Origin: an uncultured Clostridia bacterium
Lineage (GTDB): Bacteria; Bacillota; Clostridia; Christensenellales; UBA1242
Length of the DNA: 38,190 nucleotides
NCBI GenBank assembly: GCA_947629505.1
Contig: CANRDW010000008.1
Location: 1 to 38,190 of the forward strand
Reading direction: 5' to 3'
Position 1 is the stretch's first letter. The number at the start of each line of letters is the position of its first letter. The notes below the pieces were generated by a model. It saw only the letters and a program-made list of their open reading frames with translations. It was not told the origin of the DNA and searched no databases. The translations under genes and the position numbers were made by a program. Shown in pieces: positions 5,180 through 36,331 of the stretch.

Positions 5180-6775
5180 CTAAATATTAATTTTTCTATA
5201 TTTCTTGTCAACTGTAAACCAGAAAATAAGTATATTTATGATTGAATATATAAATGCAGCAGCGATTATTATCAAATAAGCATAAACCACAGGCAAAATT
5301 TTTGGCAGAAGCAATCCGCCCGCACCTAACAATGCAGCCATTAAAAGCCCGATTATAAGCATAAAGGTGATGTTTATCTCTTCCGCCTCGCCATTTGCCT
5401 TTGGTTTAAGATTTGGATTTGCAAGATTTAAATTTATTCCGTTAAACACCAAACCTATGCTGAATAAAATTTGTGAAGATACAAGCACAGCAAGTTCTGT
5501 CAAATTGATAAATTGCAATGCCACCAAAACAATTGAACTTATAAGCAAAACCCCAAGGCTGACCATCACATTCACCGAGCCTTTAACAAGCAGTTGTTTG
5601 CGATAACTCACAGGAATGATTTTTGTTATATAAAATCTTTTCCCTTCAATGCTTAATATTGTTGCAGCGAAAGAGCTTATCATTGCCATAAACACTGAAA
5701 TGACAATCATAGATGCGCCAAAAGTGACGCCAGAGCCAAGTTGCGCTGTGCCAACGACATTTGCCAATCTGTTGCAGAAGAAAACCATGACGGGTGTGGC
5801 AATTGCAACACCTAAATAAAAATATGAATAAGTTTTGGTGTGTATGATTTCATTTAGTGTGTGCTTTAAAATTGCTTGCGAGCCGCTTAGATTGTCAATT
5901 TGTGAAAATCTTTTGTAAACATCTTCTCCGCCATCAAGCACTTTTGTCCTTATTTTGGTGTAAACATTTTTTGCAATCAAAACGCCGATAGTGATAAAAA
6001 CAAGCCCAATCCCAAGCGTTGCGCCAAGCCCAATCCAAAATTGGTCAAAAAACATTATGTTTGCAATGTAAAATGCAGGGTTGTAATATGCGTTGAGGCC
6101 GTTTATCAAATTTTGCCAAATTTCAAGCGTGCCAATTTCCCAATTGCGATGAATAAAAAATTGTGCAAGTGCATTCAAAATGAAATAATAGGCGACAAAC
6201 AATCCCACTAAAAACAGGATAAACAAAACAAGACTGATAATGTTGTGTTTTTTCAGCAGAGCGCCAAGATACATAATTGGAATTGCCAGGAAAATTGAAA
6301 GTGCAAAAGGCACAACAGTAAAAAAGATTATGCCCAAAATAATTCCAAACACATAACTCACACTTATGCAATTCATTGCAAAGCCAAATACAAGCATCAT
6401 AGGGACAAGCAATATTGTGGAGTAGATTAAAAGGTCAATGTAATTTAAAATCAAAGCGCTGGCAAAAGTTTTAAGTGGGCTGAGCGGGAAACGAGAAGTT
6501 ATAGTCAAATCTGCAGGTCTGTAAAGCCTTTTCACTTGCATGCTTGTTGCAACAATTGTCAGCCCAATCATGCTGATTGTTAAATAAAGCACAGACAGTT
6601 GTTTTGCTGTGACTGCTATGCTTGTTTGCAGCACAAAAGAAAGCCCCCAAACAAGAGCAAGCACAATTGCAATAGCGACAAGTGCCACAAGCGAAGTGAT
6701 AAATGCATTTGATTTGCTGTTGTTGCGGTTTAAGCCCCATTTCAGTTTAAGTTGCAAACGAATGAAATCAAACAT
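5180..6775 (-). CDS. Multi-TM ABC transporter permease (ABC exporter/ABC-2-like)
   Basis: 531-aa ORF with many hydrophobic segments; overlaps the ATPase gene by 8 nt. Confidence 0.75.
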   Translation of the reverse strand: MFDFIRLQLKLKWGLNRNNSKSNAFITSLVALVAIAIVLALVWGLSFVLQTSIAVTAKQLSVLYLTISMIGLTIVATSMQVKRLYRPADLTITSRFPLSPLKTFASALILNYIDLLIYSTILLVPMMLVFGFAMNCISVSYVFGIILGIIFFTVVPFALSIFLAIPIMYLGALLKKHNIISLVLFILFLVGLFVAYYFILNALAQFFIHRNWEIGTLEIWQNLINGLNAYYNPAFYIANIMFFDQFWIGLGATLGIGLVFITIGVLIAKNVYTKIRTKVLDGGEDVYKRFSQIDNLSGSQAILKHTLNEIIHTKTYSYFYLGVAIATPVMVFFCNRLANVVGTAQLGSGVTFGASMIVISVFMAMISSFAATILSIEGKRFYITKIIPVSYRKQLLVKGSVNVMVSLGVLLISSIVLVALQFINLTELAVLVSSQILFSIGLVFNGINLNLANPNLKPKANGEAEEINITFMLIIGLLMAALLGAGGLLLPKILPVVYAYLIIIAAAFIYSIINILIFWFTVDKKYRKINI

Positions 6776-7487
6776 CGTCCACCTCGTTTACTTGCATGAA
6801 TATTTTTTCCAAATCAACATTTTTATCTTTTCGCAAATCAACAATCTTTGCAATTTCGCCGTGTTTAATAAAAATCACCACATCGCACGCTTTTTTCACT
6901 GTTTCAAGGCTGTGAGAAGAAAACAAAACAGAACGCCTGTTTTTGGCATAATTTTTAATAAACTTAACAAGCAAAAGCATAGTTTGTGGGTCAAGCCCCA
7001 CCATAGGCTCGTCCAACACCCATAAAGATGGATTGTGAACAATTGCACCCAAAATACAAATTTTTTGCTTCATTCCGTGAGAGTAATTTGCAATTTGTAT
7101 GTCAAGCGCGTGATCTATGTTAAACTTTTTAGCAAGAATTTCAAGAGTGTATTTTTTCTGTTCTTTGGTTGCACCATAAATGCTGCCTATGTAGTTTATA
7201 TATTCTCGCCCTGTGAGTTTTTCATAAACAGAGTGGTCATCTGGCACATAGCCGATATGCTTTTTTGCTTGTTCGCTTTGTTTGACAATATCAAAACCGT
7301 CAATTTTAATGACTCCTTCTTGGAAAGGCAAAACGCCAATTATGCTTTTGATAATTGTGGATTTCCCCGCACCGTTGCTGCCGACAAGCCCCACAACTTC
7401 ACCTGCTTCAACAGAAAAAGATATATTATGTGCTGAAAAATTTTCATTTTTAGGATATTTTTTTGAAAGATTTTTTACTTTAAGCAT
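6768..7487 (-). CDS. ABC transporter ATP-binding protein
   Basis: Walker A GSNGAGKST, signature-like NYSHGMKQK, Walker B LWVLDEP, H-loop SSHS; RBS AAAAAAGGAG upstream of ATG. Confidence 0.95.
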   Translation of the reverse strand: MLKVKNLSKKYPKNENFSAHNISFSVEAGEVVGLVGSNGAGKSTIIKSIIGVLPFQEGVIKIDGFDIVKQSEQAKKHIGYVPDDHSVYEKLTGREYINYIGSIYGATKEQKKYTLEILAKKFNIDHALDIQIANYSHGMKQKICILGAIVHNPSLWVLDEPMVGLDPQTMLLLVKFIKNYAKNRRSVLFSSHSLETVKKACDVVIFIKHGEIAKIVDLRKDKNVDLEKIFMQVNEVDDV

Positions 7488-7512: not shown

Positions 7513-7542
7513 ATTATAAGTTGCGGGGGGGGGATTTGTCAA
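7513..7542 (-). promoter_or_regulatory. Promoter with poly-C (C9) spacer, candidate phase-variable
   Basis: Minus strand TTGACA-AATCCCCCCCCCGCAACT(18)-TATAAT, just upstream of the ABC ATPase start. Confidence 0.75.
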
Positions 7543-15319: not shown

Positions 15320-15532
15320 ATTTTTTATTATAGCCGAAAAATCTTTTTATGTCAACTTTAATTTTTATTTTATTTAATATTTATTTAATTTTTTATGCTT
15401 AATTTAGTTGCGAAATTAATTTCAAAAATGTTAAAATAAAATTGTATAAAATTCGTGCGCATTTAATTGTAAAATTTCAGTATTTATTTTACCAATTGGC
15501 AAACACTAATTTTGCCTTATCAAAGGAGAGAT

Positions 15533-18500
15533 ATGAAAAGAAAAAGAGGAGTGTTAAGCATTTGGGCAACGCTGCTGCTTGTGCTGGTAGGCTTTGTGTG
15601 TGTGATTGGAGTGGTCACACTTATTATGTTTCTTTCTGGGCAATTAAACAAAAAGATTATTGAGCCGCAAAATTTATCAATATCTCTTGCTGATGGAAGT
15701 GAAGGGTTTGTGAGTGGGAACAACAATTTTTATGTTGCAAATGATTTTAAACTTGTTGTCAACACCACAACCGCAGATGTCACTGAAAAAACGATTAGAC
15801 TTAAATTTACAGATGGCTCGACAACTAAAAACGGCTACATAACAGACAATGACCGCATTTTGACCGTGCCAGAATATGTCACAATTGGGAAACCTTTTGA
15901 AGTCACGCTTGGAAGAGATTACAACAGCGAGTTGGATGCAGACATTGTCATTGGCGGCTTTAAAAGTTTGACGGCGGAGTCTGTTGAAAATGTTGAACTT
16001 CCACACCTTTCATTCACTGTGGCAGTGGATGTTCCTGTTTCAAACATTGAAGTGGGGGTTGATCAAGGTGCTTCCACAGTTTTCAACAATTTTCAGACAG
16101 TGACGATTGGCTCTGTGTTTGATTTTAGAGTTGATTTCAAACCTGAGCAAAGTCAGTTTGTTTTCTCTGACAACACTCAAAAGAAAGAATATTTCTATGA
16201 TTTTTCAACTTCAGGCATCAGAAGAAACTGGAACACTGGCCACTTTGAAGCATATTCAAAAAATGGCAGTGTGGATGAAGTGACAGTTTACACTTTTGCA
16301 AATTCTTATTACAGACAACTTGCTTTAAAAGAAATTGAAGAAAGTTATGAAAATCAAAATCTTAAAGACGAAAATCCTTTGGAATACAACACTGCCATGC
16401 TCAGTTATTTTGGCAGAAATCCTGCGGGAGCAGTCACATACACATTCCAAATTCAAGTTGTTGATGTGACGGTGAACAAGGATTCTTTGAAATTGAAAAA
16501 TGGTGGAAGTTACGATTCTGTTCCACTTGACCCTGTTTATGTTGACAAATATTACACACTCACTGCAAATTCAGAAAACGGCGATGACACTTTGGGCATC
16601 ACTGTCTATGACACAAGCGACACGGAAAAGCCATATCTTGTTGCAAATGTTGGAATTAAAATGCCTGAAGATATTGATATTAATGATCTTGTAATTGAGG
16701 GCGACAAGGTTATGCAAGTTGACAAAGAAACCGGCGACATTACAGAACTTCAGTTTGTTTTAGAGGATGCAAAAGGCGGCAAATATAACAGCACAGACCA
16801 ATATTCTTATTATATTTTGCCAAACACAACTCCAAAAAACAGTGGAGATTATTTCTGGCGCTTCAATGCAACAAAGGATCTTTCAACACAAACCTTTGCA
16901 ATAAACTTCTTCTATGAAAATGAAATGGGGAAGATTGTTTCATTATATGAATTTGGTGCTGACAAAGAAAAGAGTGCAATACTTACAATAAAGGAACAGA
17001 CTTATGAAGAGCCACCTTATTGGAAAGAAACTTCTGAATCTTCCGTTATTACAATGAACATCACCTATGACAGTGAGGGGACTGCAAAAACTGCCGTTGT
17101 TGACCTCAATGAATATCTCAATCCACTCAATGAAGCAAACATCTATGATGTTGTGAGATATTTCTTGATGTTCCCAACAATTAGTGGTGCTGAGGATGTC
17201 GTCAAAAATGTTTTCCCATACAAATCAGTTCATACATACACAAAAGACTATAAAGATCAACCTTTAAGTTTAAAAATTCAGGGTTATGACAAAGACAGTT
17301 ATGAATTATATGAACTTGAAACTTCACTTTTGTATGCTCTTAGAAGTTATTCTTCAACAGCGCTTGTTTTGGCGGCAACTATAAGAACAGATGCTGACCA
17401 CAATCCATATTTGGACGGAGAAGGCACTTACAAGATTGTAAACTTAAGCACGCCAAAAGCCGTTATTGTTGAAAGCGCTCTTTCAATTGTCAATATGACA
17501 CCATCTTTCTCATTTGTTAAAGAAAGAGGCATTACGCCATACAAAGATGGCAAATATTATGTGCCTGCAATAAACAGATCGGCAAGCGGCTCATCACTTG
17601 ATATGATTGAGTTTAATTTGACGGTTAATAGTGATGGTGATCCAACAACAAATGACAAAGTCATACAGGCTTTCCAAAACAAAAATCTTACAATAGAATG
17701 TTTGGACACACTGAATAATGTTTATGACATTGATTATTTGCAACTTGAATCGCTTAATGTAGAGGGAACAAAATTCAAAGGAAGAATTGCAATCAACGAA
17801 ACGGCATTCACACAAGAACATTTAGACAACTATTCAAATTTGGATGTGGGCAAACCGATTAAATTGCGCCTTGTTTACAATAATGGCGTTGAAAAGCAAT
17901 ATAAAGATATGTATTTAGAAGACGACCCTTCTGTTACAACCATGAATATTTATTATCCACAGCCATATTATGATGTCCAAGGCGGCGATGGCAAATATTA
18001 CATCGAGGGGAGATATCAAGAATTCTTTGGCTCTGCAACCACCACTACACAACACACACTTAAGGTCGATATTTCAGACACAACCACAATCAATTGGGTT
18101 GACAAAGAAGGCAGAGAAACAGATATTTCGTCATGGGGAGATGCACTTGGTCTATCAGGTGGGGCAAACGCAATTGAAATTTTAAACAAACTTTTGACTT
18201 TCACTTTAAAAGACCAATATGACAACGATATTGCTGAGGGGCTTTACAGCATTCGTCTGGTTGAAGAAGATGAAAATGGCAATCCTGTCACGGCTGGGGC
18301 GATCGGCCGCTCACAACTTTTAAATGAAATCGTAAATCTTTCTCCAACAGCAAACGGAAAGCCAACTTATCTTCGCGCGTATATTGTTGAAAATGCAATC
18401 ACAGAAAACACAGATGATTATTTTGTCAAAGTATATGACGAACAAAATGTTCCAACGGGCGACAGACTTGGCTCTGTGAGATTTGAATTTAACATCACAG

Positions 18501-21500
18501 GAAAAGGCATTAATCATATCGATTATGACAGCGACAGAGACCTGACGGCAACAACTTGGACAGATTCTCTAAACAACGGAACTGTCATAGTCGAAAAAGT
18601 CATCAATCCTACAAAGAACACCACTCCAAGCGTTGAACTAAACAAACTTGTCCACGTGTATAAGACAGGTGAGGGGCATGGGAAAGAAGACGACCACCAA
18701 AACCAAAACGGTTACGCCGATGTGATTTTCCTTCTTGACCCAGAATGGTTTGCAATGCTGTCAAGCAAAGATGAACTTTCAAAGATGTTGCAATTCAACG
18801 ACACTTTGAGTTTGACAGATGATGGAATTGAAACTACACCAATTACATCAATCAAATTTTTAAATGTGTTCAGCAGTGATACTGAATTGAAGTTTGTGAT
18901 AACTGACAGTTCAAGATTGTTTAGAATATCTTTTGTGTTTAAATGCATTTCAGATGTCGAGATTAAACCTGACTTTTCACGCTTCACCAAGCAATATGAA
19001 TCATATCTCGTTTCAAGTCCAAACAATTCACAAGAAATTGCACTTTTTGGAAATTATGAATACAAACTTGATGATTTCACAACTTTTTCCAACACACTAC
19101 ATTTAGAAAATTACTCTTGGGAAGATGCTTTTGATGGGAAAGACCCTGAAGAAAAAGACCCTGAAGGAGCATATACACTGGTTGACAGCAGCTCCCCTTC
19201 TGTTGCCAAGATAATTAAAAAAGGCTCAGACATATATTTGCATCTTGAAGAAGTTTATGTATGCACATCCGTCACCGTTGCTGTGTATTATCATATTAAA
19301 TCAACTTATTCTCCAATATTGTATCTTAACATATATATAAATCCAAATATTATAATGCGAGAAGATCTGACGCAGAGTGCAGATGGGGTGATTTTGGATT
19401 TGGCAAGTGATTTGCCAGCATTTGAAACAAATTATAAATTCTATCGCGCTCTTGGGCAGAATGGCGATGGTTATCTCAATGGAAACTCTTTTGAAGGCAA
19501 AACAGAGATACCAATTGAAAAGTTAACTTTTAATTTCGCAGAAGACCCTTCAACTCAATATATTCAAATAAGCGAAAAAACAGATGAAAGCGGAACATAT
19601 CAATACAAACTCAACACCGGCACGCTTGATTTGAAGTTTGGACAACTTGTTGCACAAAAGTTTAATGTAGTCACAGGAAATTCAGATTTCAACGCAATCA
19701 GAATTGTTACAATTGGAGATAACACAACCATATATAAATCTGACAATGCTTTGCAAATTCAACTTTACATCTCTTATGCAGCAGACGTAAGCCAAATATT
19801 CAAACAAGAAGAAAATAAAAAAATTGAAACCGTGTTGTATGGCGAAAACAAAGAAACTTATGTCATTCTTGTGCCAAACGGAAACGGCGGGCCTTCATCT
19901 TATCAACCAGCAAACAACACAGTGTTCACCTCTGTTTCTGGCGGGGCATTAACCAGACAAGATGAACAACACATCACCGTCAGCGGCACATCCTTTAAAA
20001 ACTTTATTAAATATGACAACAGCATTGTTGCCACAAGGACACTTTCAGATGGCGAGGGAACACTTGAAATCAGATTGACAGTCAATGTTATTGTGAGTGT
20101 GCTTGGCGACAAATTGCTGAATTACAACAATCAATACAACCATTTCACAGCCAAAGATGAAAAAGACAACACTGAAGAGATTGCATTCTCTGATTTGATG
20201 GCAAACGGCAATGTCTTAACTGCCAAGAATGTATATCAAGAATTGAGCGCTGGCGGAAGTTATAAAATTGTCCATGACACCAGCACAAGTAGTTCGACAA
20301 CAACCATAGACGAAAAAGAAAATGAATCGGGCTTCTATTTCTATTACAATCAAAGATACACTGTGATACTCGATATTGTGCAAGATCAATACAATATTGC
20401 ACAACGTTCTAGAAGCGAGGGCAACACCAGATATTATGACACAATAACTCTTGGAAATCTTGAAAACACATTTGGAGATGTGTATGTCATTTTGCGCCTT
20501 ACAATCACTTCGAGTGGAAACAACCTAATTTCATATTATTATCGCGTCAAAGTGACCCCAAACTTCAAAATGGGCGGAGTTATATATCCATTTGAAGTCG
20601 AAGGCGAATATCTTGACACATCTTCAAAATATTACAATGCACTCACAAAACACTATGAAATCAACCTTGACGAAAAATTTGATGAAACAAACAGTTATCT
20701 TAAAGATCAAAGCGCAGATAAAGATAAAACGGGCAAAACTCGTTTCGTAGATCCAAAAATCGAAGGGAAAACATTAACTTATTCATACAAGATTGGCAAC
20801 ATCTATGATGAGGATATCTCTTCAACCAGTCCACTTGTCGGAAAGGATTCTGATTATCTCACAAGCGCCTATGAAACTGATGGTGTTCTAGATTTCTTCA
20901 AAGATTTTGAAACGCAAGACCCAAAAACAAAATATACAAAATTAAACATTGGACTTGTTGACGAAACACGCCGCCTTACAGTTGAAATCATCAAATCATT
21001 TGAAAGTGACAACGTTTCTCTTGTCGGCGGTGACCTTGTGTATAAACTCCGCTTCAATCAAGGCAGACAATATGCATATCGTATTGAAGGGGACAATGTT
21101 TCTCCAAATCAAAAGAACAGCAACACTTACACCACAACTCTCACCGTCAACGACACAGAAAGTGACAAAGTATTTTCAATCTATCTTGCCGAAAAAGGTG
21201 GCTTAACAGAAACAGAAATTAACAATTATGATTGGTATATCACAAACACGGGAAATGACACAATTTTATCTGATAATTTTAAGTTTACTTCAAAAGGAGA
21301 AGGACAAATAGGCAAAGTTTTGACAATCACAACTCCAGCAAGCATCAAAAAAGACTTTACAGTTGAAATTGGCTTCTACACAACGCAAAAACGCGTGTTT
21401 AGATTTGTTGTAAACTTTACAAGCAATCTCAAAGAAACACCAAACGAAACTTTTGTCGGTGGCGAGACATATAAATTTGCCAAAGAAGGCGACAAAAAAG

Positions 21501-24500
21501 GTTCAATCTTTTCAAAAGATGGCTACACAATAGAAGCGAAAGAGAAAGACCCGAATGGTGCTTTCTATGCAATAACAAGCGAATCAATTGAATTTGCACA
21601 TTTGACAGAGGACAAAGATTTTACCTTCACAGCAACAAAAGGCAATTATTCATTTGACTTTACAATCACTGTCAAGGCAAGCATAAATCTTAACACTTTG
21701 CAAAACAGAATTATTACAGATCCTACCCATCGATTTGGGCAAGTTAAGTTTGATGTTAATCTTTCAGATATAATTACTGCACAAGGATTAACAGCCAGTG
21801 TAAACAGCAAGTTCACATTTGGCGCTTGGGGAGAACAACTTGTTGAAAGTCAATCAATCACCCCAGACGATGTTGCCAAAGGCGGCGAAATTGTCAGAAA
21901 GTCATTTACATTAACTTATCGCTTCAACAATAATGAAAGCACAGAAATTTCTTACACATTCAATTATCAATACACAGTTGATGAGAATGTAAAAATCACT
22001 CAAAACTATCCAAAGCCAGACGGGGAAAATCCAAGTGAAAGAGAATATCTCTCATCTGAAACGGCAAAACAATCAGATGCATTCTTCTTCACAAATGTTG
22101 CGGACTTTGCAACTGGTGCAAGAATTCAAGTTGACGACTTGACAACAGAAGTGGCAAAAGAGAAACCTATTGCACAAAAATGGACAATCAATATCACAAG
22201 TCTTAACAATCTTAGAGTTACATTTGATGGTTCAGTGATTGGAGCGGGCAGTAACATTATCACAAACACAACAATTGATGATTTAAATAACAAAGTGCTT
22301 ATCTTTGAACTTGTCAACCCTGCCATAAACGGAACTGCCGAGTTTGCGATTGAAATCAACAAAGTTCCAACAACCTATTCAGTTACAGTAGTAAGTGGCG
22401 AGGCGATTTCCATTCAACGCAACAGGCCTCAATCTGATAAGGTCGGCACAGAAATCATCTATGCTGAAAACATGCAAAACAAAGGCTCAGACATCTTTGC
22501 ACAAGACAGAATTTTGAAATATAAATTCAATCAAAATGCTGTTGGCACACACTATGTAAAACTTCAAAACGAGGCAGGAGACACTAAGATTATTGGAATC
22601 ACAGTTGATGAACTTAAACAATTTGTAAATCTCGATCTTGGAAAGTCATATACAGGTTATAAGGTTAACGGCACATATTCCACACCAGAAGCCACCGGCA
22701 CGGCAGAATCGGACAGCCAACTTTTTGAGGCTGCTCCAACCTTGACATCTCGAATTGTTGCAATTTATGCAGACGACACAGCAATCAAAAATGAAAAAGT
22801 CACCATTGAAATTAAAAGACAAGAAGAACAAGTCTATGTTGCAATTGGGGACTTTAAACTTAAATCGACAGATTTTGACAAATCTGTGACCGTTGATATA
22901 CAACTTAAATTTGACGGAAACGAAATCACTGTTCCATTCACATACGACTATATATTGACCGTTGACTTTGAAGTTGGAAACAATGCGGACAACATTGAGC
23001 CGGATGGCGCTGGCGCAAGTTATGTGACAGTCAATGCTGGCGAAGAAAAGAGTTTGCTTGATGAATTAGGATTTTTGGTTCGCCACTCATCTGGCGATAA
23101 GGCTTTATACACAAGCGCAGACATGCAAAACAGCGTTGGCAGATTGAACCTCAAACTTTATGATGATGAATTGGAAATTGAAAAGAGCGACACTGACACT
23201 CTTACAAACTCTGCATTTAATTATGATACCTATTTAAAAGCAGCAATAAATGAAGGCGGCATAATATATAAAACTGGGCTTAATCCTTTTTCGCCAAAGG
23301 GTCTCTCTTACATCACACGTAAAGGTACCAGTGTTGATACAGAAGGCAAAGAATATGATTACACACTCTCTGCAGAGGGTGCTGGAAATGACGGCAACTT
23401 TGTGATGATGCGTCTTTCATACATTGTCACCTTTGACGATGTTACAGTCACGGCTTCACACAACATTTTGCTTAAAATTTTGCCAAATTCAAGTATTTCG
23501 TTTAAAGAGAATTCAACTTCCAATGCAACGGAAGGCGACAATACCATGGTGATTGCAGGCCAAAGCATTTGGACAAATAAAAATATTAAACAATATGAAG
23601 TTGAAAACACAACCGATGGCGACTCAATCGTTTTGTGGGACAAAGAAAATCAAGCAAACAGTGCAATTCAAGTGAATATGTACAAAAATTTCAGCGCAAA
23701 AGATTTTGATTACACCTACAATCTAAAAGCCGACAGTGGCTACAACGATTGGGACGTTATGAATCAATCGTTTGATGCAGGGAATGGTCAGTGGAGCGCA
23801 GTACAAGATGAAAATAAAACAACAATAAAAGCAACTGCAACTCCAAACTCTGAGAATAATTTTGTGATAAATGTTCCATATCTTACATTTGGCACAACAA
23901 GATTTTATATTGAATTTGAAAACAACTATGGCTTCAAAGCAAGATTCTATTTCCAGAAATCTTCAGCGCTCAATCCAACAGTAAGCAAGGTTGGTGAAAA
24001 CGATGTGCTTCACGAGGGGGACAAATTTGTCTTTGGCGTGGACTTTATGCAAATCGCTTCTGACGCCCCTGTATATACATTTGTTTACAACGAAGATGGC
24101 AAAGCAGAAGATACTGGCGAGATAACAATTAAAGGTTTTGATAAACAAAAAGAAAACGGGCAAGTGGAGGTTACAGCAACCTTTGAATTTGGCATGATTT
24201 ATGCGAAAGATAAGCCGACAGCAGATAAATTTAGCAATGTACCAAGGACTTTAACTGCAACTATCAAGCGTGAGAGTGATAATATAACATCTATTAAAAT
24301 AGAAACATTAACATGGAAATTAGGTTTAGATCCAATTGATTTGTCGTCTGGGGACACAAAATTGTATTACTACAAAAATGGGAATGTTTCTCAAGCAAGC
24401 GACGTGGCAAGCTTCTTCAGAAACAATAAACCAACAATTTCTGTAGATCTGAGTGGATTGGTCCCAGATAATTCTGCAGAAGAAAATCCTACACTTCAAG

Positions 24501-27500
24501 ATATTTCAGTATTTATACAATATGGCACAAAAGTAGAAACAAAAGACCAACTGACCAGACGTTACAGAAGTGAATCTGGTGATGGGGTTGGTGTTGCTGA
24601 GGGTGCCGAATCTACGGTTGTTGTTCATATGTCAGGCATAGATGCCTATGGCTTTGACAAAAAAGATGGAATTGTTGATAAATATTCCGCAACGGGTGGT
24701 GACGGTCAACAAGATTTCACATCCAACATCAACAAAGTGTTGATCGACCATGTTGATTTCTACAAGACGGACGGCACAACTTGGCTTGGCAGCAGTATTT
24801 TGGGCAGATCAAATAAAAACGGTATAAAAGAAATTAAAGTTGGTGGAACTGATGGTGAAAGTGAGCCATATAATACAAGCGCATTAAGTGGTGACTTAGG
24901 CAAGATTTACACAAGCGAAGGTTATGAGTTTATTTTTGAGGAAGCATCAAAATTTGAGCCGGGCATAACTGTTGGCACTAAGGAAAACAACGAGTTTGTT
25001 GTCCCATACATTAACGGAATTGAATTTGGTGAAAATGAATCTATAGATGCGATTATGCGCGTGACAATCCGTGGCGGAGATCAGGACACAAACAAACAAA
25101 CTCGCACAACAGATTTCCAAGTTCAAATCAACAGAGATGATTATGTTACTTCAGCAGAAGCACAAATCAACGATGGTGCCTCTGTAACAACTGATGAAGC
25201 ATATAAATTTGCAACCAAGACTGAAGAGGTTAATGGTGAAAATACAGCAACTTGGCTTAATGACACACTTGAAATTGACCTTGCTCCATACACAACGATT
25301 AATTTTGCAGTGCATAATCGAGGCGACTTTAAAACGGAAAACAATACATTGCAAGTAAATCTTAACACGACAACTGAAAAAACTAAAGATAATTATGTTG
25401 CTGCAAGCATTAAAGAAGTAGAAAATAAAAATCCATTCTGGATCACAGCGTATGTTTCAATTTCTGGCAGCATGGTTGCTGGGGCATTTACAAAGAATTT
25501 GGATAATGATCCAAATAATGACAGAAATTTAGAAGATGCTGACAGATTCTATATCTATTTGCTTAGCCAAACCGTTGACGAGGGATATGAAACTAAAGAT
25601 GCTGTGTTTAGATATAATGGACAGGATATTACAATGAATGCTGAACAGCCACAAGCAGAAGAAACATCATTTGTTCCAAAAACAAGTGCTGGAACACCTA
25701 TTGCAGAATATAAACCGGAAAGCATAACTCTTCGCATAAACGACACAAGAGAATTGAGTAGCGGGCATAAACAAGTTGAACTTTACTTCTTGAAGAAGAT
25801 GGGAAGCAAGACCATGTATGCTGACGGCAACAGAGTTTACAGATATTCAAAATCATTCTCAGTGCATCCAGAATATAGTGTTGCCATTCCTCAAATAAAT
25901 GGTGGGGATGGGGAAACCTTGCAAATTTCAGATTATTACAAAGTTACTCACAAAAATAATGAGCAAGACCCAGGAACTTCTTATTATGTCATTCCAATGA
26001 GCGTTTGGGGCAAAAATGTTATGCTGAAAGTCAATGAAAGTGACAAGAACGAAGAAGGCGCTTCAATTTCAGAAAAAGAGGCATATAAATATGAGTTTGA
26101 AATTGAACAAGCACAAGGCTCCGCTTCAATTGACAAGTATGGCAACATCATCACAAACTCTGACTTTGGACTTTCTTGGAACCAAATGAGCGTCACTATT
26201 TGCACAAAAGTTGCCGGATTTGATTGCAAATTTGAGGACGGAAATGGCACAGTTGATTTAACACAAATTGGCGTTCCGGGCAAAGAAATTAAATTGTCAT
26301 TTAAGAAAGCAGAATCAGAACCAACAGAAGGAATAGAAGAAACTCCAGGATGCTATTACATTGAAGGCTTGAATAGAACACTGATTACTCTCGGCGAAGG
26401 GGATACATTGTATGCAATTGGTGATGTTTCAAAGACTGCAAGCCTAGTTGGCGAAGTAGATAGCAAAACAACAATCCCAGACTTTGCGTTGACTCCAAAT
26501 CAGCAACTTGATTTACAACAAATGTTTAAAGACGTATTTAGAGACAAAGGTTGGACAAATGTCAACTTCTATTTGGTGGGCTATTCTAAGGATGAAGGAG
26601 ATATCAACACAATTGTTAGAAACAACATTGATGTATATCAAGCGGGTTTTGCTGAAGCGGGCACATACAAGATAACAGTTGTCGCAACGGGAAAAACAAA
26701 CAATCAAACAGAAAAACAAACTGAGCAGTTCACCTCCACCATTTATGTTTATGACACATCAGAGCCAATAAGTATAGCCTATGCTCAAAATGTAGATAAT
26801 GGTGGTACAGCAAATTTATCTATAATTACGGGCACTGGTGAAGGTGAAACATGGTATGAACTTAAAGACGGAAAGACAACAAAGTATGAGGACGGGAAAG
26901 TCACTGTCAAAAAGGGAGTTGAGGACAGACAATTCTTGCTTGGCAACAGGCTTTACAAAATCACCTTTGTTGGCTATGGAAATACAAATGGAGAAGATGC
27001 AATTAAAAAAGAAGTTGCAACCAGCGTCAACTACTCTCTTTCAAATCTTGTTGACAACAAGGGCGGAAAATTCTATAAAATTGTAAATGTAAATGGGAAA
27101 AATCAACTTAGCCGTGATTATAACATTGAATATATCTCAGCCAATTATGGAACATCCAGGGTAGAGAAATATTTCTACAGCATAAATGGAACAATCACCA
27201 AATATGAAGTGACCTATCATATTGTTTCATCAAGCATAACAAACTACAACGGCACTTTGCCGGTTACAGCTGCCCATGAAGTTTCAAAATATGATGTTTA
27301 TAGTCTGGTTAAGGAAATGCTCAACATTCAAATGAAAATTTCAGAAGAAGCAAACACAGAAGAAGCAATATTGGAAGAAATGTTAAAATACATGACAATC
27401 TACGAGAAAGGTACAAATGGAGTTTTGACTGAATTCAACGGCAAAACATTTAGTTCTGATGAGTGGGGAGATGGCTTGGCGAGTTACAGATTCAGCGATC

Positions 27501-27862
27501 TCGTTGTAATTTGGGGCAAGAGCGGCTCTTCTGAAAAATCTCAACAAATCACTTTGGATTGTTTCTTGTTTGAAAATGAAAAAACAGTTGTAATTGATGA
27601 TGTTGACAGGAATATAACTTACAACCTTGCAAATGCAAGCGAGCCAATTTTAAAAGCGCTTGAAATAACAGACGCTGGTTCTATCACATTCTATGAAATA
27701 AAAGATGGCGTTGTTGACATAAGAGCCGCTGTTTCAGAGATTTTCCTTGGAAACTATCTTGCAAGTGGCAAATATGAGGGAACATTCTTAATCAATGTTG
27801 GAAACAAGTATTATAAAATAAACCTCACTCTCAACATCAAAAAGGCACAGGTGACAGGATGA
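15533..27862 (+). CDS. Giant (about 4109 aa) N-terminally anchored extracellular protein
   Basis: Continuous ORF; RBS AAAGGAG before ATG 15533 (MKRKRGVLSIWATLLLVLVGFVCVIGVVTLIMFLSG); beta-rich, low-Cys repetitive extracellular-type sequence; no LPXTG or C-terminal TM seen. Confidence 0.9.
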   Translation: MKRKRGVLSIWATLLLVLVGFVCVIGVVTLIMFLSGQLNKKIIEPQNLSISLADGSEGFVSGNNNFYVANDFKLVVNTTTADVTEKTIRLKFTDGSTTKNGYITDNDRILTVPEYVTIGKPFEVTLGRDYNSELDADIVIGGFKSLTAESVENVELPHLSFTVAVDVPVSNIEVGVDQGASTVFNNFQTVTIGSVFDFRVDFKPEQSQFVFSDNTQKKEYFYDFSTSGIRRNWNTGHFEAYSKNGSVDEVTVYTFANSYYRQLALKEIEESYENQNLKDENPLEYNTAMLSYFGRNPAGAVTYTFQIQVVDVTVNKDSLKLKNGGSYDSVPLDPVYVDKYYTLTANSENGDDTLGITVYDTSDTEKPYLVANVGIKMPEDIDINDLVIEGDKVMQVDKETGDITELQFVLEDAKGGKYNSTDQYSYYILPNTTPKNSGDYFWRFNATKDLSTQTFAINFFYENEMGKIVSLYEFGADKEKSAILTIKEQTYEEPPYWKETSESSVITMNITYDSEGTAKTAVVDLNEYLNPLNEANIYDVVRYFLMFPTISGAEDVVKNVFPYKSVHTYTKDYKDQPLSLKIQGYDKDSYELYELETSLLYALRSYSSTALVLAATIRTDADHNPYLDGEGTYKIVNLSTPKAVIVESALSIVNMTPSFSFVKERGITPYKDGKYYVPAINRSASGSSLDMIEFNLTVNSDGDPTTNDKVIQAFQNKNLTIECLDTLNNVYDIDYLQLESLNVEGTKFKGRIAINETAFTQEHLDNYSNLDVGKPIKLRLVYNNGVEKQYKDMYLEDDPSVTTMNIYYPQPYYDVQGGDGKYYIEGRYQEFFGSATTTTQHTLKVDISDTTTINWVDKEGRETDISSWGDALGLSGGANAIEILNKLLTFTLKDQYDNDIAEGLYSIRLVEEDENGNPVTAGAIGRSQLLNEIVNLSPTANGKPTYLRAYIVENAITENTDDYFVKVYDEQNVPTGDRLGSVRFEFNITGKGINHIDYDSDRDLTATTWTDSLNNGTVIVEKVINPTKNTTPSVELNKLVHVYKTGEGHGKEDDHQNQNGYADVIFLLDPEWFAMLSSKDELSKMLQFNDTLSLTDDGIETTPITSIKFLNVFSSDTELKFVITDSSRLFRISFVFKCISDVEIKPDFSRFTKQYESYLVSSPNNSQEIALFGNYEYKLDDFTTFSNTLHLENYSWEDAFDGKDPEEKDPEGAYTLVDSSSPSVAKIIKKGSDIYLHLEEVYVCTSVTVAVYYHIKSTYSPILYLNIYINPNIIMREDLTQSADGVILDLASDLPAFETNYKFYRALGQNGDGYLNGNSFEGKTEIPIEKLTFNFAEDPSTQYIQISEKTDESGTYQYKLNTGTLDLKFGQLVAQKFNVVTGNSDFNAIRIVTIGDNTTIYKSDNALQIQLYISYAADVSQIFKQEENKKIETVLYGENKETYVILVPNGNGGPSSYQPANNTVFTSVSGGALTRQDEQHITVSGTSFKNFIKYDNSIVATRTLSDGEGTLEIRLTVNVIVSVLGDKLLNYNNQYNHFTAKDEKDNTEEIAFSDLMANGNVLTAKNVYQELSAGGSYKIVHDTSTSSSTTTIDEKENESGFYFYYNQRYTVILDIVQDQYNIAQRSRSEGNTRYYDTITLGNLENTFGDVYVILRLTITSSGNNLISYYYRVKVTPNFKMGGVIYPFEVEGEYLDTSSKYYNALTKHYEINLDEKFDETNSYLKDQSADKDKTGKTRFVDPKIEGKTLTYSYKIGNIYDEDISSTSPLVGKDSDYLTSAYETDGVLDFFKDFETQDPKTKYTKLNIGLVDETRRLTVEIIKSFESDNVSLVGGDLVYKLRFNQGRQYAYRIEGDNVSPNQKNSNTYTTTLTVNDTESDKVFSIYLAEKGGLTETEINNYDWYITNTGNDTILSDNFKFTSKGEGQIGKVLTITTPASIKKDFTVEIGFYTTQKRVFRFVVNFTSNLKETPNETFVGGETYKFAKEGDKKGSIFSKDGYTIEAKEKDPNGAFYAITSESIEFAHLTEDKDFTFTATKGNYSFDFTITVKASINLNTLQNRIITDPTHRFGQVKFDVNLSDIITAQGLTASVNSKFTFGAWGEQLVESQSITPDDVAKGGEIVRKSFTLTYRFNNNESTEISYTFNYQYTVDENVKITQNYPKPDGENPSEREYLSSETAKQSDAFFFTNVADFATGARIQVDDLTTEVAKEKPIAQKWTINITSLNNLRVTFDGSVIGAGSNIITNTTIDDLNNKVLIFELVNPAINGTAEFAIEINKVPTTYSVTVVSGEAISIQRNRPQSDKVGTEIIYAENMQNKGSDIFAQDRILKYKFNQNAVGTHYVKLQNEAGDTKIIGITVDELKQFVNLDLGKSYTGYKVNGTYSTPEATGTAESDSQLFEAAPTLTSRIVAIYADDTAIKNEKVTIEIKRQEEQVYVAIGDFKLKSTDFDKSVTVDIQLKFDGNEITVPFTYDYILTVDFEVGNNADNIEPDGAGASYVTVNAGEEKSLLDELGFLVRHSSGDKALYTSADMQNSVGRLNLKLYDDELEIEKSDTDTLTNSAFNYDTYLKAAINEGGIIYKTGLNPFSPKGLSYITRKGTSVDTEGKEYDYTLSAEGAGNDGNFVMMRLSYIVTFDDVTVTASHNILLKILPNSSISFKENSTSNATEGDNTMVIAGQSIWTNKNIKQYEVENTTDGDSIVLWDKENQANSAIQVNMYKNFSAKDFDYTYNLKADSGYNDWDVMNQSFDAGNGQWSAVQDENKTTIKATATPNSENNFVINVPYLTFGTTRFYIEFENNYGFKARFYFQKSSALNPTVSKVGENDVLHEGDKFVFGVDFMQIASDAPVYTFVYNEDGKAEDTGEITIKGFDKQKENGQVEVTATFEFGMIYAKDKPTADKFSNVPRTLTATIKRESDNITSIKIETLTWKLGLDPIDLSSGDTKLYYYKNGNVSQASDVASFFRNNKPTISVDLSGLVPDNSAEENPTLQDISVFIQYGTKVETKDQLTRRYRSESGDGVGVAEGAESTVVVHMSGIDAYGFDKKDGIVDKYSATGGDGQQDFTSNINKVLIDHVDFYKTDGTTWLGSSILGRSNKNGIKEIKVGGTDGESEPYNTSALSGDLGKIYTSEGYEFIFEEASKFEPGITVGTKENNEFVVPYINGIEFGENESIDAIMRVTIRGGDQDTNKQTRTTDFQVQINRDDYVTSAEAQINDGASVTTDEAYKFATKTEEVNGENTATWLNDTLEIDLAPYTTINFAVHNRGDFKTENNTLQVNLNTTTEKTKDNYVAASIKEVENKNPFWITAYVSISGSMVAGAFTKNLDNDPNNDRNLEDADRFYIYLLSQTVDEGYETKDAVFRYNGQDITMNAEQPQAEETSFVPKTSAGTPIAEYKPESITLRINDTRELSSGHKQVELYFLKKMGSKTMYADGNRVYRYSKSFSVHPEYSVAIPQINGGDGETLQISDYYKVTHKNNEQDPGTSYYVIPMSVWGKNVMLKVNESDKNEEGASISEKEAYKYEFEIEQAQGSASIDKYGNIITNSDFGLSWNQMSVTICTKVAGFDCKFEDGNGTVDLTQIGVPGKEIKLSFKKAESEPTEGIEETPGCYYIEGLNRTLITLGEGDTLYAIGDVSKTASLVGEVDSKTTIPDFALTPNQQLDLQQMFKDVFRDKGWTNVNFYLVGYSKDEGDINTIVRNNIDVYQAGFAEAGTYKITVVATGKTNNQTEKQTEQFTSTIYVYDTSEPISIAYAQNVDNGGTANLSIITGTGEGETWYELKDGKTTKYEDGKVTVKKGVEDRQFLLGNRLYKITFVGYGNTNGEDAIKKEVATSVNYSLSNLVDNKGGKFYKIVNVNGKNQLSRDYNIEYISANYGTSRVEKYFYSINGTITKYEVTYHIVSSSITNYNGTLPVTAAHEVSKYDVYSLVKEMLNIQMKISEEANTEEAILEEMLKYMTIYEKGTNGVLTEFNGKTFSSDEWGDGLASYRFSDLVVIWGKSGSSEKSQQITLDCFLFENEKTVVIDDVDRNITYNLANASEPILKALEITDAGSITFYEIKDGVVDIRAAVSEIFLGNYLASGKYEGTFLINVGNKYYKINLTLNIKKAQVTG

Positions 27863-35703: not shown

Positions 35704-36267
35704 TTATAAATTTTTCAATTTTTCGTCGGCCTTGTCCACAATTTCGCCTTTTGAAGTCTTCATAATATCCTTTGAGATTTCCTTATTTATTTGCGAATTT
35801 AGTTTTTTCATTGTTGCGTCCGAAAATTGACTTTTTTCATTGCGGTAGTCCAACTGCACAAAAGCCTTTGTAAGTTTTAAGAATTCTTGGACTTCTTCTT
35901 TTGTTTCTACTTTCATTTTGCCAAGAACTTTTGCAAATTCTCCAACGCGTTTAGCATAAGAAGAAATGTTTCTGCAAGAAATATCCACTTTATCCCTATC
36001 CCTAGGAGCAAACAAGCCGTAAACCATTTTGTGAACTATTGTTGTTGTATTTTGGTCGAAATTATGATTAAATAATATAATTTCCACATAAAGTTTTGCT
36101 GCGCGTTTAAAGTCTGGATTATCCTTAAGTAAATACAATTGCCCTAATTGTGCTACACTTATATTCGCATCTGTTTGAAGCTCTTCGACCATTGTTAAAC
36201 CAGCAAGCCAATCCAATACTTCTTTTCGGCTTTTCTCATCTTCCCACCATTTTATTGATTCACTCAT
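35704..36267 (-). CDS. Uncharacterised soluble helical protein, 187 aa
   Basis: Intact ORF; RBS GGGAG; own poly-C promoter. Confidence 0.75.
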   Translation of the reverse strand: MSESIKWWEDEKSRKEVLDWLAGLTMVEELQTDANISVAQLGQLYLLKDNPDFKRAAKLYVEIILFNHNFDQNTTTIVHKMVYGLFAPRDRDKVDISCRNISSYAKRVGEFAKVLGKMKVETKEEVQEFLKLTKAFVQLDYRNEKSQFSDATMKKLNSQINKEISKDIMKTSKGEIVDKADEKLKNL

Positions 36268-36303: not shown

Positions 36304-36331
36304 ATTATACTGCGGGGGGGGGACTTGTCAA
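36304..36331 (-). promoter_or_regulatory. Promoter with poly-C (C9) spacer, candidate phase-variable
   Basis: Minus strand TTGACA-AGTCCCCCCCCCGCAG(16)-TATAAT; near-copy of 7513-7542. Confidence 0.8.

Follow-up and report, generated by a model that had tools for sequence, protein, structure and literature searches.

Random switching of many genes is familiar chiefly from pathogens, Neisseria and Campylobacter among them. In the fim promoters of Bordetella the length of a poly-C tract alters transcription, the tract lying upstream of the -10 hexamer, between it and the activator site. The Neisseria gene opc is, in addition to those named below, subject to transcriptional phase variation of the kind considered here. 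In Neisseria fetA a poly-C run between the -35 and -10 hexamers alters expression, the length of the tract setting spacing and promoter strength, and three transcriptional phase-variable genes have been tabulated for N. gonorrhoeae NCCP11945 (PMC5320596). Approximately 82% of the poly-G tracts of Campylobacter (C. jejuni and C. coli; PhasomeIt) lie within ORFs, and the commonest tract lengths in its phasome are 9 (53%) and 10 (26%) (PMC6321876). According to one account multi-locus phase variation appears to be confined to pathogens (PMC11868660), and we found no report of phase variation for the lineage studied here (Christensenellales) in the open-access literature.

The window (the whole stretch of 38,190 nucleotides analysed here) is part of an uncultured Clostridia MAG, G000, which comprises 991,195 bp in 43 contigs and is 86% complete. 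It carries two promoters of the same design, both on the minus strand, with the following features:

36326–36331, minus strand: -35 hexamer TTGACA
36314–36322, minus strand: C9 homopolymer tract in the promoter spacer (spacer of 16 bp, 36310–36325)
36304–36309, minus strand: -10 hexamer TATAAT
35704–36267, minus strand: downstream gene, 187-aa protein with no confident Pfam/NCBIfam family
7537–7542, minus strand: -35 hexamer TTGACA of the second copy
7525–7533, minus strand: C9 tract of the second copy (spacer of 18 bp)
7513–7518, minus strand: -10 hexamer TATAAT of the second copy
6768–7487, minus strand: ABC transporter ATPase (PF00005), 239 aa, downstream of the second copy

The first copy, TTGACAAGT-C9-GCAG-TATAAT on the minus strand (36331–36304), lies directly 5' of the gene for the 187-aa protein. 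Spelled out it reads TTGACA AGT CCCCCCCCC GCAG TATAAT, with a GGGAG ribosome-binding site 3' of the -10 and then an ATG at 36267. The second copy reads TTGACA AAT CCCCCCCCC GCAACT TATAAT (minus strand, 7542–7513), the ATG being at 7487. A sequence-only reading of the window had noticed that the two share TTGACAARTC9GCA; both modules proved exact, and both tracts (36322–36314 and 7533–7525) are C9. When the window was shuffled, TTGACAARTC6 matched 0.10 times on average against the 2 matches observed, and none of 100 shuffles reached 2. The same reading had pointed out that a single slip, in opposite directions, would optimise each copy. This is correct as arithmetic, since the spacers are 16 and 18 bp and 17 is the commonest spacer when ordinary TTGAC-N-TATAAT pairs from this DNA are counted.

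An ortholog of the 187-aa gene was found in one of the 111 other genomes of the genus (G122, locus L184; 90% identical). In its promoter a substitution at the tract edge leaves C8, the total spacer still being 16. The ABC ATPase possesses a paralog on contig C21 (76% identical) which is likewise preceded by a C9 promoter, and its orthologs in G113 and G116 have promoters lacking the C run. The upstream regions of the ABC-gene homologs were read without L145–L167 (~45–51% identity) and three close ones. The same window contains a 4116-aa open reading frame (15512–27862, plus strand).

As in Neisseria fetA/frpB (poly-C) and porA (poly-G), the homopolymer of C or G is situated between -35 and -10 (PMC5320596). 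Unlike the three genes of that N. gonorrhoeae strain, there are about 14 predicted ones in the 0.99-Mb G000, with a near-standard core, TTGACAANT-C9-G, in front of unrelated genes. Unlike the Bordetella fim promoters, the tract of G000 is a plain -35/-10 spacer. The mechanism proposed is one already described for Neisseria fetA and porA; what appears to be new is its scale, the use of a standardised module and the lineage in which it occurs.

The suggestion that the two copies belong to a dispersed promoter family was borne out by a genome-wide search, which revealed 12 C-tract copies, not just two, together with 2 G-tract copies (C6:24377 and C24:10991), all before unrelated genes; the reversed control pattern gave no match in G000. 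Each C-tract copy is a few tens of nucleotides from a start codon (the gene start at L060 is ambiguous) and, judged by these distances, the copies are located near gene starts and not mainly elsewhere. Behind the tract promoters are genes for two paralogous ABC ATPases, for a WG-repeat and a DUF898 protein, for proteins bearing a membrane segment at the N-terminus and for others without family; no shared function was found among them. G000 possesses 28 C/G runs of at least 7 (one of 7, six of 8, sixteen of 9 and five of 10). Twelve are C runs right after TTGAC in promoters, 2 are G runs in promoter spacers, 12 are in coding frames and 2 are elsewhere. Runs of at least 8 number 27 against the ~0.5 extrapolated from the decay of short runs, that is, an approximately 50-fold excess, and lengths 6 and 7 are nearly empty (one of each in the 177 kb of G000 sampled). 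A phage element was also considered; there was a single match among viral contigs, and the module is therefore not a phage element.

Within the genus TTGACN{1,6}C8 is present in 64 of 112 species genomes, against 2 matches in total for the reversed control, and poly-G counterparts occur as well. When 392 genomes of the class were searched with a stricter pattern including TATAAT, only 3 contained it, each of them a member of the genus; it was absent from the 384 class genomes outside it. The sample consists of one MAG per species, these being consensus assemblies. The survey of the genus covered 147 tract sites; at 122 of them both a -10 and a start codon lie within 120 nt, the start codon at a median of 35.5 nt from the tract. 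C-type sites account for 107 of the 122 (C9 78, C8 25, C10 4), so that C9 makes up 73% of C-type promoter tracts; since loci L061–L135 and L285–L344 are pattern matches such figures presuppose a tract, and shorter tracts are under-sampled because the search pattern for most sites demanded at least 8 C. The dominance of C9 could also reflect constraint. The 122 downstream proteins form 94 protein clusters, mostly singletons, which confirms the proposal that one promoter family is dispersed over unrelated genes.

Tract promoters have spacers of 13–20 bp, most of them 15–17. Spacers of 17 bp are rarer than among ordinary pairs (12/74 vs 20/43, p=0.0006), and the medians differ weakly and non-significantly (16 in tract promoters vs 17 in ordinary pairs, p=0.10). 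Regressed on tract length, the spacer lengthens by 0.81 bp for each base of tract (95% CI 0.34–1.29), which fits the prediction of uncompensated slippage. Most copies are a base or two below the usual optimum and, drawing upon general promoter knowledge, one slip should therefore matter.

One lipoprotein promoter is present in four species. Relative to the C9 copy (L092, spacer 16), that of L338 has T+C9 and a spacer of 17, and that of L105 has C8T and a spacer of 16; these two show 3 and 8 differences, respectively, outside the module over ~310 bp. Flank divergence among the three species is ~1–3%, yet the tracts differ. The fourth and more diverged species (L096) has C10 and a spacer of 17. 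Of the three departures from C9, two consist of a substitution at the edge or an inserted T, not a clean C indel. Among near-identical alleles of different species, then, a tract change shifts the spacer from 16 to 17, whereas the ortholog pair of the window holds 16. In the Candidatus Bipolaricaulota MAG JALSGO01 (L185, L206) identical promoter flanks enclose a C9 run on one contig but a C12 run on a second.

Of the 12 coding poly-G/C tracts in G000, 9 put their gene out of frame and 3 do not. Six of the out-of-frame cases belong to paralogs with a single N-terminal membrane segment, whose tract (G8, G9 or G10) occupies one and the same position (C15:18001, C34:189, C38:713, C40:2165, C2:62141 and C7:36276; L042, L050, L051, L052, L055 and L059). 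The membrane segment of ~44 aa is followed by frames of at least 419 aa, several of which run to the end of the fetched stretch, and a Pfam scan of four of the six gave only DUF6273, in one. This set is a candidate surface contingency family. Because out-of-frame coding tracts are a hallmark of contingency loci, slippage also becomes the most economical way to read the tracts in promoters. G000 has the attributes of a multi-locus phasome: at least 10 candidate loci per genome, an excess of long tracts, and coding tracts in both ON and OFF frames. Like the Campylobacter phasome it has many G/C tracts, with a mode of 9 and then 10, and a mixture of in-frame and out-of-frame genes; unlike Campylobacter, about half of its tracts are in promoters and MutS and MutL are present. 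Both are intact, which rules out loss of mismatch repair as the cause, and slippage may therefore be slower than in Campylobacter. In the MutS search most members of the genus had one MutS-family match, and nearly all other families of the order had a second, partial, MutS2-like one; judging from these matches MutS2 may be missing from the genus. G055 is the only near-complete relative in the order, outside the genus, without a MutS or MutL match.

We consider it likely that this is multi-locus, promoter-heavy, slipped-strand phase variation, acting through sigma-70-type promoters with hypermutable runs in their spacers. A slippable tract of at least 8 C or G does lie between -35 and -10. The C8–C10 run (elsewhere G8–G10) of such a promoter would gain or lose one base by replication slippage, the spacer presumably ranging from ~15 to 18 bp, and this shift would alter promoter strength in a random and reversible way, with each of the ~14 G000 genes varying independently. 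That C and G runs occupy the same spacer position argues for length, not sequence. Observed are the position, architecture, number and genus-wide spread of the module, the tract and spacer differences between near-identical alleles of different species and the out-of-frame genes; the rate and reversibility of slippage, its effect on transcription and a bet-hedging benefit are inferred. A counterpoint comes from a simple hydropathy rule, by which 23 of the 122 downstream proteins are lipoprotein-like and 40 contain membrane segments of another kind; the remaining 59, in which the rule finds no such segment, look cytosolic, unlike classical surface contingency loci. The sequence-only reading had offered a coordinated or stochastic phase-variation regulon. 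The stochastic part is well supported by indirect evidence, namely the excess of long tracts, the range of spacers, the allelic series of one promoter and the out-of-frame coding tracts. The coordinated part is unsupported, since slips in one tract should be independent of those in any other and no shared regulator site was found beyond the tract.

Alternatively, C9 may be a fixed recognition or structural element, either the site of a C/G-tract regulator or an A-form spacer, conserved in length within a co-ordinately regulated regulon. The strong C9 mode, the hole at run lengths 6–7, the nearly invariant cassette TTGACAANT-C9-G and the several diverged ortholog pairs which retain C9 and spacer all suit this explanation, as do copies found with a -10 in Mucispirillum, all of them C9 with a spacer of 15. 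So does an edge signature, [T/A]C8-10G: T or A precedes nearly all C8–10 runs, and G follows 69–100% of runs of 8–10 C vs 15–27% of runs of 3–5 C. We nevertheless think a fixed regulator site unlikely. The operator shared by a regulator's regulon would be confined to promoters, whereas the signature, absent in shorter runs, occurs in both orientations and in promoters and genes alike; tract and edge bases thus recur at the same lengths in coding regions, where no promoter regulator would act. Moreover, the tract is also reversed in promoters, spacers vary from 13 to 20, and Campylobacter contingency tracts share the length mode. It is conceivable, if rather doubtful, that a lineage-specific factor recognises or edits [T/A]C8-10G tracts in either orientation, holding them at 8–10 bases in promoters and genes. 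If there is such a tract-maintaining factor, the genus runs a dedicated tract-based switching, not passive slippage.

It is very improbable that these are ordinary strong promoters whose C run, the product of chance or mutation bias, has no regulatory consequence. While their hexamers are near consensus, and the run-free promoters of the ABC-gene orthologs in G113 and G116 agree with it, such an origin does not account for the ~50-fold excess of long runs, their bimodal lengths, or the fact that 64 of 112 genomes have them concentrated beside the -35, where the control pattern matches hardly at all. The idea of a mobile or duplicated cassette that carried the promoter to new sites, as the same short core at unrelated genes and the longer, copied-looking, near-identical poly-G promoter blocks with hairpin in G032 and G008 might suggest, is scarcely credible and for G000 is rejected, for homology stops at the core (mean identity of the upstream 60 nt of the 12 copies 37% vs 34% shuffled) and no shared sequence is evident 3' of the -10.

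The gut genus Mucispirillum (Deferribacterota) has several poly-C promoters per genome (L179, L181, L187, L188, L191, L197, L204, L213, L217, L241, L243 and L245), mostly TTGACATT-C9-ATGATATAAT and all with a spacer of 15 in the pattern search. Unlike the module of the Clostridia genus, the run is mostly followed by A and the spacer is 15 in all matches, and this looks like an independent origin. We found no paper describing these Mucispirillum promoters. An uncultured Clostridia genus with ~1-Mb genomes would possess a large, promoter-heavy set of switching loci, paralleled in gut Mucispirillum. Its more than 100 natural promoters of differing spacer and tract length make spacer-length control directly measurable there. 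They also carry a warning, in that the population expression of tract-promoter genes is unreadable from one assembled genome.

Outside the genus, G055, which belongs to another family of the same order, is the sole relative in the order rich in TTGAC..G8 sites. G032 (L355–L362) and G008 (L363–L367) contain ~15–18 near-identical poly-G promoter copies per genome, TTGACAAAAAATGC-G8-TAAAATAGG..., often with a hairpin directly 3' and some seemingly without a gene; these are possibly silent cassettes or a repeat element.
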